This document shows positions 44,381 to 49,673 of a stretch of 64,000 bases of DNA, one piece after another. The translations under genes and the position numbers were made by a program. Each line of letters begins with the position of its first letter. Within the stretch, counting starts at the first letter, position 1. The notes under the pieces are model-generated. The model did not search any database and was not told the DNA's origin. It was given only the letters and a program-made list of their open reading frames with translations. Source of the DNA: Caenimonas sedimenti (GTDB taxonomy: Bacteria; Pseudomonadota; Gammaproteobacteria; Burkholderiales; Burkholderiaceae_C); the NCBI RefSeq assembly GCF_007833165.1, contig NZ_VOBQ01000010.1, positions 62,001-126,000 of the forward strand. Reading direction: 5' to 3'.

Positions 44381-45742
44381 TTGGCGACGAACAAGATCCA
44401 CCCCGCCCTCGCGGCGCTCAAGAAGGCCGGCGCCACCAAGGTCAAGGTCGCCGTCAGCGACATCGACGGCGTGCTGCGCGGCAAGTACCTGCACATCGAC
44501 AAGTTCGAGGGCGCCACCACCGGCGGTTTCGGCTTCTGCGACGTGGTGTTCGGCTGGGATTCGCAGGACGTCTGCTACGACAACACCGAGGTCACGGGCT
44601 GGCAGCACGGCTTCCCGGACGCGCTGGCACAGGTGGACCTTGGAACGGCGCGCCGCGTGCCCTGGGACAACGAGGTGCCGTTCTTCCTCGGCGACTTCAT
44701 CAACGCCGACGGTTCGCCCTTCCCGGTGTGCCCGCGCCAGACGCTCAAGCGGGTGCTGGCGCGCGCGGAGAAGCTCGGCTTCGCGCCCATGACGGGCATG
44801 GAGTTCGAGTGGTTCAACTTCCGAGAGACGCCCTACACCTGGGCCGCGAAAAAGGGCGTGGGGCCGGAGCCGCTGACGCCCGGCATGTTCGGCTACTCGC
44901 TGCTGCGCATGGCGGACAACCCCGGCTTCTTCAATGCGCTGATGGACGAGATGCTGGCCTTCAATGTGCCGATCGAAGGCCTGCACACCGAGACCGGGCC
45001 GGGCGTCTACGAAGTCGCGATCGGCTTCTCTTCCGCGCTGGAGCAGGCCGACCGCGCCATCCTGTTCAAGACCGGCGCGCGCGAAATCGGCAAGCGCTTC
45101 GGCATCATGCCCAGCTTCATGGCCAAGTGGAGCCAGAGCTACCCGGGCTGCAGCGGCCACATCCACCAGAGCCTGTCGGACGGCAAGAGCAACCTGTTCT
45201 ACGACGCCAAGAGCCCGCGCAAGATGAGCAAGCTGTTCGAGAGCTACCTCGCCGGGCAGGTGGCTTGCATGATGGAGTTCGGGCCGATGATCTGGCCCAC
45301 CATCAACAGCTACAAGCGCCTGGTCGATGGCTTCTGGGCGCCCGTCAAGCCGACCTGGGGCATCGACAACCGCACGGCCAGCTTCCGCGTGATCGCCGGT
45401 TCTCCAAAGGGCACGCGACTGGAAACACGCTGCCCCGGCGCCGACGTGAACCCTTACCTGGCGATGGCCGCGGTCATCGCCGCCGGCATGTACGGTGTGG
45501 AAAAAGGGCTGAAGCTCACCGCGCCGCCCATCACGGGAACCAACCAGGGCGCGGAGAACATCCCCCGCGCACCGCGCAGCCTGCTGGAAACGACGAAGAT
45601 CTTCCGCGACTCGAAGATCGCGCGCGACTGGCTGGGCGACACCTTCGTCGAGCATTTCGCGGCCACCCGCGAGTGGGAATACCGGCAGTGGCAGGACGCC
45701 GTCACCGACTGGGAATTGAAGCGCTACTTCGAGATCATCTGA
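44381..45742 (+). CDS. Glutamine synthetase family protein (GS-like gamma-glutamyl ligase)
   Basis: A 453-residue GS-family enzyme. It keeps the Glu pair of the metal site (GMEFEWF, Glu141 and Glu143), GCSGHIHQSL (257-265), and IDNRTASFRV (328-337). It resembles PuuA/GlnT-type ligases that attach glutamate to an amine through its gamma-carboxyl rather than ammonia. It must start with TTG at 44381: an in-frame TGA lies at 44357 and there is no ATG or GTG between. It leads a coupled set with GNAT, Fe-ADH, hydrolase and ALDH genes (overlap TGATG to the GNAT gene). The amine is probably present in this pathway; identity is unknown. Confidence 0.85.
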   Translation: MATNKIHPALAALKKAGATKVKVAVSDIDGVLRGKYLHIDKFEGATTGGFGFCDVVFGWDSQDVCYDNTEVTGWQHGFPDALAQVDLGTARRVPWDNEVPFFLGDFINADGSPFPVCPRQTLKRVLARAEKLGFAPMTGMEFEWFNFRETPYTWAAKKGVGPEPLTPGMFGYSLLRMADNPGFFNALMDEMLAFNVPIEGLHTETGPGVYEVAIGFSSALEQADRAILFKTGAREIGKRFGIMPSFMAKWSQSYPGCSGHIHQSLSDGKSNLFYDAKSPRKMSKLFESYLAGQVACMMEFGPMIWPTINSYKRLVDGFWAPVKPTWGIDNRTASFRVIAGSPKGTRLETRCPGADVNPYLAMAAVIAAGMYGVEKGLKLTAPPITGTNQGAENIPRAPRSLLETTKIFRDSKIARDWLGDTFVEHFAATREWEYRQWQDAVTDWELKRYFEII

Positions 45743-46254
45743 TGGCCGGCGTGGAGATCCGCTTGCTCGCCCCGCCCGATGCCGCGGCCTACCGCGCGTT
45801 GCGGCTGCGTGCGCTGCGCGAGCACCCGGATGCATTCACGTCGAGCCACGACGAAGACGAGCGCCTGCCGCTTTCCACCTCGGCCGAGCGCCTGGCATCG
45901 AGCCGCATCACCTTTTGGGGCGCGTTCCTGCGCAGCGAACTGTGCGGCATGGTGGGCCTGGAGCGTGAGACGCGCGCCAAGAACCGCCACAAGGCCACGG
46001 TGGTTGCGATGTACGTCGCGCCGGAAGCCGCAGGCCACGGGATCGGCGCCAGCTTGCTGGCGGCGCTGATCGCCGAATGCCGCGCCGAAGGCATCGAATC
46101 GCTCGTGCTGACCGTGACCGACGGCAACGACAAGCCGCGCGCGCTTTACGAGAAGGCCGGCTTCCGCTCCTTCGGCGTCGAGCCCCGCGCCATCAAGGTG
46201 GGCGGCACCGCCTACGCCAAGAACCACATGCACCTGGACCTGAGCCACTCATGA
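45742..46254 (+). CDS. GNAT family N-acetyltransferase
   Basis: A 170-residue GNAT acetyltransferase. The acetyl-CoA binding motif A is YVAPEAAGHGIGASLL (about residues 93-108), followed by VLTVTDGNDKPRALYEKAGF. The acetyl acceptor is unknown; it could protect an amine of the pathway. It overlaps the GS-like gene stop (TGATG) and the Fe-ADH start (ATGA), so it is part of the operon. Confidence 0.85.
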   Translation: MAGVEIRLLAPPDAAAYRALRLRALREHPDAFTSSHDEDERLPLSTSAERLASSRITFWGAFLRSELCGMVGLERETRAKNRHKATVVAMYVAPEAAGHGIGASLLAALIAECRAEGIESLVLTVTDGNDKPRALYEKAGFRSFGVEPRAIKVGGTAYAKNHMHLDLSHS

Positions 46255-48300: not shown

Positions 48301-49673
48301 CCACTCTTTCCATCCACAACCCGGCCACCGGGGAACTGATCATCGCGCTGCCCGCGGACGACGCGGCGTCGGTCGCCGCCAAGGCGGCAGCGGCGCGCGC
48401 GGCCCAGCCGCTCTGGGCGGCCTTTCCCCTGGCAAGGCGCAAGGCCTGCATCGAAGGCTTCCGCACCGGTGTCGTGCGCGACCTCGAGCTTCTCGCCGCG
48501 ACCATGACGCGCGAAACCGGCAAGCCGATCAAGATGTCGCGCAACGAGCTGAACGGCCTGCTGCCGCGCATCGATTTCTTCCTGCAGGAGACCGAGCGCA
48601 GCATCGCGGGCGAGACCGTGTTCGATGAAGGCGGCATGCGCGAGCAGATCCAGCACGAACCGCTGGGCGTGGTCGCCAACATCTCGGCCTGGAACTACCC
48701 CTGGTTCGTCGGCTGCAACGTCATCCTGCCGGCGCTGCTGACCGGCAACGCGGTGCTCTACAAGCCCTCCGAGTACGCGACCCTGACCGGCCTGGAGATC
48801 TGCCGCCTGCTGCACGAGGCCGGCGTGCCGCGCGACATCCTGGTGGGCCTGGTCGGCGGCGGCGAAGTGGGCCAGGCGCTGCTGGAGCAGGAGGTGGACG
48901 GTGTCTTCTTCACCGGCTCCCACGCCACGGGCCAGCGGATCGCGCAGGCGGTGGGCCAGCGCTTCGTCAAGCTGCAGCTGGAGCTGGGCGGCAAGGACCC
49001 GACCTACGTCGCCGACGATGCCGACCCGAAGGCGGCGGCCGAATCGCTGGCAGACGGCGCGATGTACAACACCGGCCAGAGCTGCTGCTCGGTCGAACGC
49101 ATCTACGTGCATGAGCGCAGCTACGACGCGTTCGTGGACGCCTTCGTGCAGACGGTCAAGAGCTACCGCATGGGAGACCCGGCGAGCGAGGACACCTACA
49201 TCGGCGCCATCACCCGCGCGCCGCAGCTCGATGTGCTCGCGGCGCAAGTCGCCGACGCCAAGGCCCAGGGCGCCAAACTGCTGCTGGGCGGCCACCGGGG
49301 CGAGGGTCCGGGCAACTGGTTCGAGGCCACGGTGTTCAGCGACGTGAACCACAGCATGGAGCTGATGCGAGAGGAGAGCTTCGGCCCCTTGATCGGCATC
49401 CAGAAAGTGCGCGACGACGACGAGGCCGTGCGTCTGATGAACGACACGCGCTACGGGTTGACGGCCGGTGTCTACACACGGGACGAGGCGCGGGCCAAGC
49501 GTGTGCTCTCGCAGGTGAAGGCGGGCAGCGTCTACTGGAACTGCTGCGACCGCGTGAGCCCGCGCCTGCCGTGGAGCGGTGTCGGCGATTCGGGCGTCGG
49601 CCTCACCCTGTCCAGGTACGGCATCCAGACGTTCACCCGGCCCAAGGCCTGGCACCTGCGCCAGCCCGCCTGA
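48297..49673 (+). CDS. NAD(P)-dependent aldehyde dehydrogenase
   Basis: A 458-residue aldehyde dehydrogenase. Catalytic Cys263 is in NTGQSCCSVER and general-base Glu229 in LELGGKDP. It resembles succinate-semialdehyde/gamma-glutamyl-aminobutyraldehyde-type enzymes. The previous gene stop overlaps its start (ATGA). With the GS-like ligase, Fe-ADH and C26 hydrolase it makes a full chain from amino alcohol to amino acid. The substrate is unknown. Confidence 0.87.
   Translation: MTTLSIHNPATGELIIALPADDAASVAAKAAAARAAQPLWAAFPLARRKACIEGFRTGVVRDLELLAATMTRETGKPIKMSRNELNGLLPRIDFFLQETERSIAGETVFDEGGMREQIQHEPLGVVANISAWNYPWFVGCNVILPALLTGNAVLYKPSEYATLTGLEICRLLHEAGVPRDILVGLVGGGEVGQALLEQEVDGVFFTGSHATGQRIAQAVGQRFVKLQLELGGKDPTYVADDADPKAAAESLADGAMYNTGQSCCSVERIYVHERSYDAFVDAFVQTVKSYRMGDPASEDTYIGAITRAPQLDVLAAQVADAKAQGAKLLLGGHRGEGPGNWFEATVFSDVNHSMELMREESFGPLIGIQKVRDDDEAVRLMNDTRYGLTAGVYTRDEARAKRVLSQVKAGSVYWNCCDRVSPRLPWSGVGDSGVGLTLSRYGIQTFTRPKAWHLRQPA

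Follow-up and report, generated by a model that had tools for sequence, protein, structure and literature searches.

The question raised by this locus is which compound is processed by a block of genes standing immediately downstream of phnW, the gene for 2-aminoethylphosphonate (AEP):pyruvate transaminase. The block occupies positions 44381-49673 of a 64,000-nucleotide (nt) stretch of Caenimonas sedimenti DNA (contig NZ_VOBQ01000010.1), hereafter the window. A sequence-only reading had proposed that a glutamine synthetase (GS)-like ligase, an iron-containing alcohol dehydrogenase (Fe-ADH), an aldehyde dehydrogenase (ALDH), and a C26 hydrolase form a gamma-glutamylated amino-alcohol pathway attached to PhnW. 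Our analysis makes it likely that the block serves the breakdown of ethanolamine through gamma-glutamylated intermediates, yielding glycine and glutamate. The ligase would use ATP to couple the ethanolamine amine to the gamma-carboxyl group of glutamate, and the Fe-ADH would oxidise the hydroxyl group of the resulting gamma-glutamylethanolamide to an aldehyde. The ALDH would then convert this aldehyde into gamma-glutamylglycine, which the C26 hydrolase would split into glutamate and glycine. We infer each catalytic step and the identity of the substrate from gene content and comparison with relatives. The block comprises the following features.

44381..45742, plus strand: GS-like ligase, proposed gamma-glutamylethanolamide synthetase (TTG start; PF00120, E 3.9e-87)
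45742..46254, plus strand: GNAT acetyltransferase gene, optional, overlapping the ligase and Fe-ADH genes (NCBIfam rimI, 45.9 bits, cut-off 86.4)
46251..47384, plus strand: Fe-ADH, proposed gamma-glutamylethanolamide dehydrogenase (PF00465, the Fe-ADH N-terminal model, E 4.8e-42)
47385..47520, no strand: 136-nt gap with two copies of CCTCCCCCAGAGGGGGAGG
47521..48300, plus strand: C26 (PuuD-like) hydrolase, proposed gamma-glutamylglycine hydrolase (GTG start; PF07722, E 1.2e-56)
48297..49673, plus strand: ALDH, proposed maker of gamma-glutamylglycine (PF00171, E 4.8e-134)

The Pfam matches bore out the four enzymes and the outer coordinates given by the sequence-only reading; a ligase, an alcohol dehydrogenase, an ALDH, and a gamma-glutamyl hydrolase, the gene content of the proposed pathway, are encoded together. 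Relatives were taken from a scan of GTDB species contigs, the best 80 of 271 being kept for neighbourhood counts, and a family sample comprised 200 genomes, the window's own among them, with a ligase threshold of E 1e-150. Many loci are metagenome bins and some genomes are present in both sets (the ligases of L014 and L176, for example, are identical), so the counts are not independent. The closest relatives of the window's ligase came mostly from Ramlibacter. The ligase threshold was reached in 36 of the 200 family genomes (the window's included), all 36 at E 1.2e-241 or better.

Three kinds of neighbouring gene in these relatives bear on the substrate. Directly upstream of the ligase, locus L087 carries a gene for a TIGR00908-type ethanolamine permease (625.6 bits, above the cut-off of 381.75), and permease genes in the same position in L073 (371.8 bits) and L086 (366.6 bits) score just below that cut-off. 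L073 and L083 each have a EutR-like AraC regulator gene in the interval from phnW to the ligase; these score 140.8 and 143.9 bits, short of the cut-off of 319. Of 100 related loci, 10 have a EutR-like gene near the ligase, eight of them together with an ethanolamine-type permease, and the loci with EutR-like or permease genes are spread over three or more parts of the ligase trees. The third kind is a binding protein of a tripartite ATP-independent periplasmic (TRAP) transporter matching PDB entry 4uab, encoded next to the ligase in L164 (E 1.4e-168) and one open reading frame (ORF) further away in L161 (E 1.3e-158). Entry 4uab is Csal_0678, whose crystal structure is described as solved with ethanolamine (PMC12410723). 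Some outgroup loci likewise carry the permease or a Csal_0678-type binding protein. We regard ethanolamine as the likely substrate because permeases and EutR-like genes occur near close orthologs of the ligase and Csal_0678-type proteins near distant ones. Comparison thus supports the earlier proposal of a gamma-glutamyl amino-alcohol route, and among the amino alcohols it listed, the gene neighbourhoods point to ethanolamine.

The same four-step logic could, however, act on another amino alcohol or amine, such as isopropanolamine, alaninol, 3-aminopropanol, or 4-aminobutanol. The ligase shares 39% identity with IpuC, which is annotated as a gamma-glutamylisopropylamide synthetase and whose gene neighbours encode an ALDH, an amidotransferase, and a short-chain dehydrogenase; the best family matches of the Fe-ADH and the ALDH, both under cut-off, name C4 substrates; and permease names do not prove specificity. 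The permeases, the EutR-like regulators, and the Csal_0678-type binding proteins nevertheless all indicate ethanolamine, and we consider a different amino alcohol or amine unlikely.

The alternative EutBC ethanolamine ammonia-lyase route was searched for through EutB (PF06751), which was not found in the window genome; among 14 control genomes, only E. coli matched. Within the family sample, EutB was present in one of 36 ligase-bearing genomes versus 14 of 44 ligase-free genomes (Fisher p 0.001, with kinship ignored).

Several observations count against ethanolamine as the substrate. Neither a permease nor a EutR-like gene is near the ligase in 90 of the 100 loci, and a TIGR00908 permease was absent at E 1e-60 from 15 of 16 genomes searched, the window's included, so that such a permease would not account for ethanolamine uptake in the window genome. 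The EutB counts take no account of kinship, and a ligase-bearing genome (G039) does have EutB. The ligase is 31-33% identical to ligases of another lineage, so identity alone does not transfer function. The top NCBIfam model of the Fe-ADH is 4-hydroxybutyrate dehydrogenase (346.9 bits, under the cut-off of 500) and that of the ALDH is succinic semialdehyde dehydrogenase (373 bits, under the cut-off of 521). Finally, the gamma-glutamyl scheme assigns no function to the GNAT gene.

The family scores of the ligase bear on a further explanation, namely that the block is a version of the putrescine (Puu) pathway or that the ligase is an ordinary glutamine synthetase. The GS-like, ALDH, and PuuD-like families are common to the Puu pathway, and the ligase does match TIGR00653 (GlnA) with 202 bits and GGputSyn NF045547 (PuuA) with 166.2 bits, but both scores lie far under the cut-offs of 429.15 and 650; the score on the GS III model is also under its cut-off. 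Among the genes scanned from phnW to a second C26 hydrolase, the amine oxidase PuuB was not found, and, besides the ligase, the window genome encodes a GlnA of its own and another GS-like protein. The ligase, moreover, has Trp319 (motif GFWAP) where the GlnA of the same genome has Glu (GFEAP). We therefore hold a Puu variant or a plain glutamine synthetase to be very improbable. Trp occupies the position of the GFEAP Glu in 54 of 54 rows of the ligase clade and also in IpuC, and Csal_0679 has Phe. We take this Glu to be Glu327 of Salmonella GS, which presumably helps to bind ammonium. The AlphaFold model of the ligase has a mean predicted local distance difference test score (pLDDT) of 78.6, with values below 50 at residues 310-332, the loop that holds Trp319; for this reason, we draw no pocket argument from the model.

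The ligase is 31-33% identical to Csal_0679 and to the Eto ligases of Ruegeria and Paracoccus, and it occupies a separate place in the tree. We accordingly rejected Csal_0679 as its ortholog, neither tree nor identity supporting this. By sequence, the ligase is not a member of the Csal_0679/Roseobacter lineage and would at most work like that lineage. Identity to a Csal_0679 fragment is 77% for the Ruegeria ligase and 62% for the Paracoccus ligase, versus 31-32% to the window's ligase, whereas the ligases of L164 and L161, near the Csal_0678-type binding proteins, are 45-47% identical to the window's. One type of ethanolamine-binding protein is therefore accompanied by two ligase lineages, the ligases of L164 and L161 being of the window's kind and those of Ruegeria and Paracoccus being Csal_0679-like.

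Residues D39, D196, H200, H264, and H278 of the Fe-ADH are the same in all 14 aligned orthologs, counting that of the window. We take D196, H200, H264, and H278 to be metal ligands, and D39 presumably favours NAD. The Fe-ADH is 41-42% identical to the Fe-ADHs of the Ruegeria and Paracoccus plasmid loci with the Eto order, and the ALDH is 38-40% identical to the ALDHs of the Eto-type operons of both organisms and of L186 and L189. The best PDB match of the C26 hydrolase (47521-48300) is Lin1909 (3fij).

The layout of the block departs in part from the earlier description. TGATG or ATGA overlaps join the genes at the GS/GNAT (45742), GNAT/Fe-ADH (46251), and C26/ALDH (48297) junctions. The coupling claimed by the sequence-only reading does not extend to Fe-ADH and C26, which are separated by the 136-nt gap, or to the ligase and Fe-ADH, which do not touch because the GNAT gene (45742-46254), not mentioned in that reading, stands between them. 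The C26 gene precedes the ALDH gene rather than following it. The 110-nt spacing between phnW and the ligase contains one copy of an identical 26-nt repeat that flanks phnW (43063-43088 in the phnU-phnW gap and 44322-44347 in the phnW-ligase gap; 0 in 100 shuffles), and the Fe-ADH-to-C26 spacing contains repeats as well. These are two copies of the inverted repeat CCTCCCCCAGAGGGGGAGG at 47413-47464; two others, one with a mismatch, lie at 60662-60775. A scan of 42900-50900 for one promoter type gave 0 promoter-like sites versus 0.6 expected, and promoter and terminator scans revealed nothing exceeding shuffled sequence.

The arrangement recurs in relatives. Downstream of the ligase in the 80 fetched loci, counting only those with enough downstream sequence, Fe-ADH was present in 62 of 66, ALDH in 53 of 58, C26 in 49 of 58, and GNAT in 22 of 74. 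The gene grouping is not due to chance, because Fe-ADH, ALDH, and C26 recur downstream in most of the fetched loci. Ligases of 43-56% identity from other families are accompanied by both ALDH and Fe-ADH in 14 of 20 loci, and an Fe-ADH match at E 1e-30 occurs in 17 of 18 outgroup genomes, the best one lying beside the ligase in 15 of the 17 (exceptions G571 and G465). On a Legionella lytica plasmid (L189), a GS-like ligase, ALDH, Fe-ADH, and amidotransferase stand in a row as the same four-step set.

The attachment to PhnW was examined in the 75 loci with at least 1300 nt upstream. The phnW gene is directly upstream (<500 nt) of the ligase in 48 of these and within 4.5 kb in 52; the remaining 23 have no phnW within 4.5 kb. 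A whole-genome search of 21 genomes revealed PhnW in 10 of 10 genomes with a phn-linked ligase, whereas, of 11 genomes in which the ligase locus has no phn genes, 10 gave no PhnW match at E 1e-60. G097 and G939, two of these 10, share the same coordinates and probably represent a single genome; in the ligase tree, the majority of the 11 cluster as one Ramlibacter group. The presence of phnW changes at least eight times on the ligase tree, a count that cannot separate gain from loss. In a Ramlibacter bin (G941), phnSTUW-HAD occurs without the block, which lies elsewhere, and the HAD gene is broken by a transposase-like insert. The 20 outgroup ligase loci contain no PhnW, PhnS, or PhnU match; the Rhizobium leguminosarum plasmid locus L190 carries a PhnW-like gene (34% identity). 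There the PhnW-like transaminase, a C26 hydrolase, a GMC oxidoreductase, a GS-like ligase, and an ALDH are grouped, possibly as a GMC-oxidase version of the route. The claimed attachment to PhnW holds for gene order but probably not for function. Since 10 of the 11 genomes in which the ligase stands away from phn genes lack PhnW, the block probably forms a separate module and does not contribute a step to phosphonate breakdown.

The neighbouring phosphonate genes are as follows.

43152..44270, plus strand: phnW, AEP:pyruvate transaminase (TIGR02326, 483.5 bits, cut-off 400.8)
39199..40236, plus strand: phnS2, AEP-type substrate-binding protein of an ATP-binding cassette (ABC) transporter (TIGR03261, 505 bits, cut-off 392.75)
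40249..41301, plus strand: phnT2, ABC ATPase (TIGR03265, 497 bits, cut-off 457.7)
41303..43012, plus strand: phnU2, ABC permease (TIGR03262, 795.7 bits, cut-off 593.25)
38332..39030, minus strand: phnR-type GntR regulator, divergent from phnS2 (TIGR03338, 339.7 bits, cut-off 271.5; start codon picked by eye)
37103..38335, minus strand: phnA, phosphonoacetate hydrolase (TIGR02335, 590.2 bits, cut-off 407.55)
35611..37113, minus strand: phosphonoacetaldehyde dehydrogenase (TIGR03250, 865.6 bits, cut-off 635.65)

A complete AEP route, as predicted from these matches, is encoded beside the block: PhnSTU import, PhnW, phosphonoacetaldehyde dehydrogenase, and PhnA. With the last three all encoded, AEP breakdown can proceed without the enzymes of the block. 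This bears on the proposal that the block acts on AEP or a relative, either with the ligase glutamylating AEP or, as the sequence-only reading had suggested as an alternative, with the Fe-ADH handling 2-hydroxyethylphosphonate or phosphonoacetaldehyde. That phnW immediately precedes the ligase in 48 of 75 loci favours such a role, but the Fe-ADH scored 145.2 bits on the phosphonate Fe-ADH model (PsrA) TIGR03405, under the cut-off of 423.7, and the alternative gained no support from it. Together with the PhnW-free ligase genomes, the PhnW-, PhnS-, and PhnU-free outgroup loci, and the complete AEP route, this led us to reject AEP and 2-hydroxyethylphosphonate as substrates of the block, a role that we judge highly unlikely.

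Two further genes follow the block.

49678..50394, plus strand: HAD phosphatase, starting 4 nt past the ALDH gene (PF12710, E 7.5e-39)
50825..51694, plus strand: second C26 hydrolase, 58% identical to the first

The HAD gene follows the ALDH gene in 33 of 37 phnW-linked loci versus 0 of 19 without phnW, two loci of uncertain phn state being omitted. This co-occurrence was weakened by a wider count and a test on the tree. Among 72 usable of 100 loci, HAD accompanied the importer in 40 of 48 and occurred in 1 of 24 lacking it, leaving nine exceptions, and the ligase tree yielded six independent pairs with a median p of 0.375, which is not significant. One genome (G198) has phnW and no close HAD; in L204, phn genes occur without the block, and HAD, itself disrupted by an insert, overlaps the last part of phnW. 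The HAD gene tracks phn genes more closely than it tracks the ligase block. Its best curated model is the histidinol-phosphatase NF052360 (228.7 bits, under the cut-off of 280). We rejected it as the sole housekeeping histidinol-phosphatase; a separate copy, 39-46% identical, is present in all 30 genomes searched.

Phosphoethanolamine is the ester analogue of AEP. The island could conceivably be a joint lipid head-group pathway in which PhnSTU also imports phosphoethanolamine, HAD dephosphorylates it, and the ethanolamine enters the gamma-glutamyl route. Such a pathway would explain an ethanolamine block between phnW and a phosphatase gene. The distribution of HAD with the importer, its distinctness from the copy shared by the 30 genomes, and its overlap with phnW in L204 speak for this idea. 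The kinship-adjusted co-occurrence is not significant and nine loci are exceptions, which argues against this idea, and we regard it as tentative and rather doubtful.

Other genes close to the phosphonate genes were also observed. A fusion of FAD-oxidoreductase and GcvT-like parts lies on the minus strand within 31697-35577, with all models under cut-off, as does a Phn-HD oxygenase (TIGR03276, 229.7 bits, cut-off 214.6; TmpB-like, 151.8, cut-off 300); together, they suggest the use of hydroxylated or N-methylated aminophosphonates. A phn_DUF6 permease-like gene lies at 34170-35282 on the minus strand (TIGR03340, 260.1 bits, cut-off 288.15). In the Ramlibacter group, 9 of 13 phn-less loci have such a gene immediately next to the ligase in divergent orientation, and the permease-like gene may be part of the ethanolamine block, perhaps its missing transporter. 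An elongation factor G paralog is encoded at 29519-31573 on the minus strand (NF009891, 939.2 bits), and ORFs judged similar by eye occur near the ligase in phn-less Ramlibacter loci. On the plus strand, the gene for an allophanate hydrolase (TIGR02713, 767.1 bits, cut-off 511.05) and, after it, one for an oligopeptide/nickel-type ABC substrate-binding protein, under cut-offs, lie within 56193-59602.

If our interpretation is true, gamma-glutamyl ethanolamine use would extend to a second lineage of ligases, present in Ramlibacter, Polaromonas, Rubrivivax, and related Burkholderiales; among the matches listed, proteins of this lineage carry only glutamine synthetase names. The recurrent coupling of ethanolamine-type and AEP genes concerns the head groups of phospholipids and phosphonolipids.

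Among known systems, Puu applies the logic of ligase, ALDH, and C26 hydrolase to putrescine. The block shares this logic, but no amine oxidase was found beside it, and an alcohol rather than an amine would be oxidised. The IpuC set of Paenarthrobacter aurescens TC1 resembles the block in its 39% identical ligase and in the nearby short-chain dehydrogenase, ALDH, and amidotransferase, and differs in its cytochrome P450 and ferredoxin genes, with no Fe-ADH among the nine features covered there. Csal_0679 of Chromohalobacter salexigens (PDB 5dm3) is 32-33% identical to the window's ligase and lies outside its clade. The Csal data reportedly come from Vetting et al. 2015.

The gamma-glutamylethanolamide pathway itself has already been published, for Streptomyces GlnA4 (PMC6529630) and Phaeobacter Eto (PMC10132767). 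GlnA4 of Streptomyces coelicolor is described as a gamma-glutamylethanolamide synthetase on in vitro and mutant evidence, with later steps proposed (PMC6529630); PMC9397018 reviews this route and reports that an identical series of steps had been proposed for C. salexigens. By that description, GlnA4 resembles our ligase in being a GS-like gamma-glutamylethanolamide synthetase with the same proposed later steps, and its cluster differs in including, according to the Fig. 2 legend, a short-chain dehydrogenase, with no Fe-ADH named in the description (PMC6529630). In Phaeobacter sp. MED193, a ligase, two dehydrogenases, and an amidohydrolase are reported to be raised on phosphorylethanolamine, and EtoX to bind ethanolamine (PMC10132767). 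The block resembles this Eto operon as described, with a ligase, an alcohol-level dehydrogenase, an ALDH, and an amidohydrolase leading from gamma-glutamylethanolamide to gamma-glutamylglycine (PMC10132767). On plasmids of Ruegeria B32 and Paracoccus PD1222, the genes are arranged as reported for MED193 and include one for an iron-containing alcohol dehydrogenase. The window differs from these two loci, which were compared in place of MED193, in that their ligases belong to another lineage (31-32% identical), their hydrolase is annotated as N-formylglutamate amidohydrolase rather than being of the C26 family, and their neighbours are a TRAP importer and RpiR rather than phn genes. Among the open-licence PMC papers that our searches listed, judged in part by title or abstract opening, we noticed no description of this ligase lineage or of a link between AEP genes and glutamylation. 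Judged from sequence comparison, what is new in this version of the pathway is its distinct ligase lineage, its putative PuuD-type C26 hydrolase, and its recurrent linkage to phnW.

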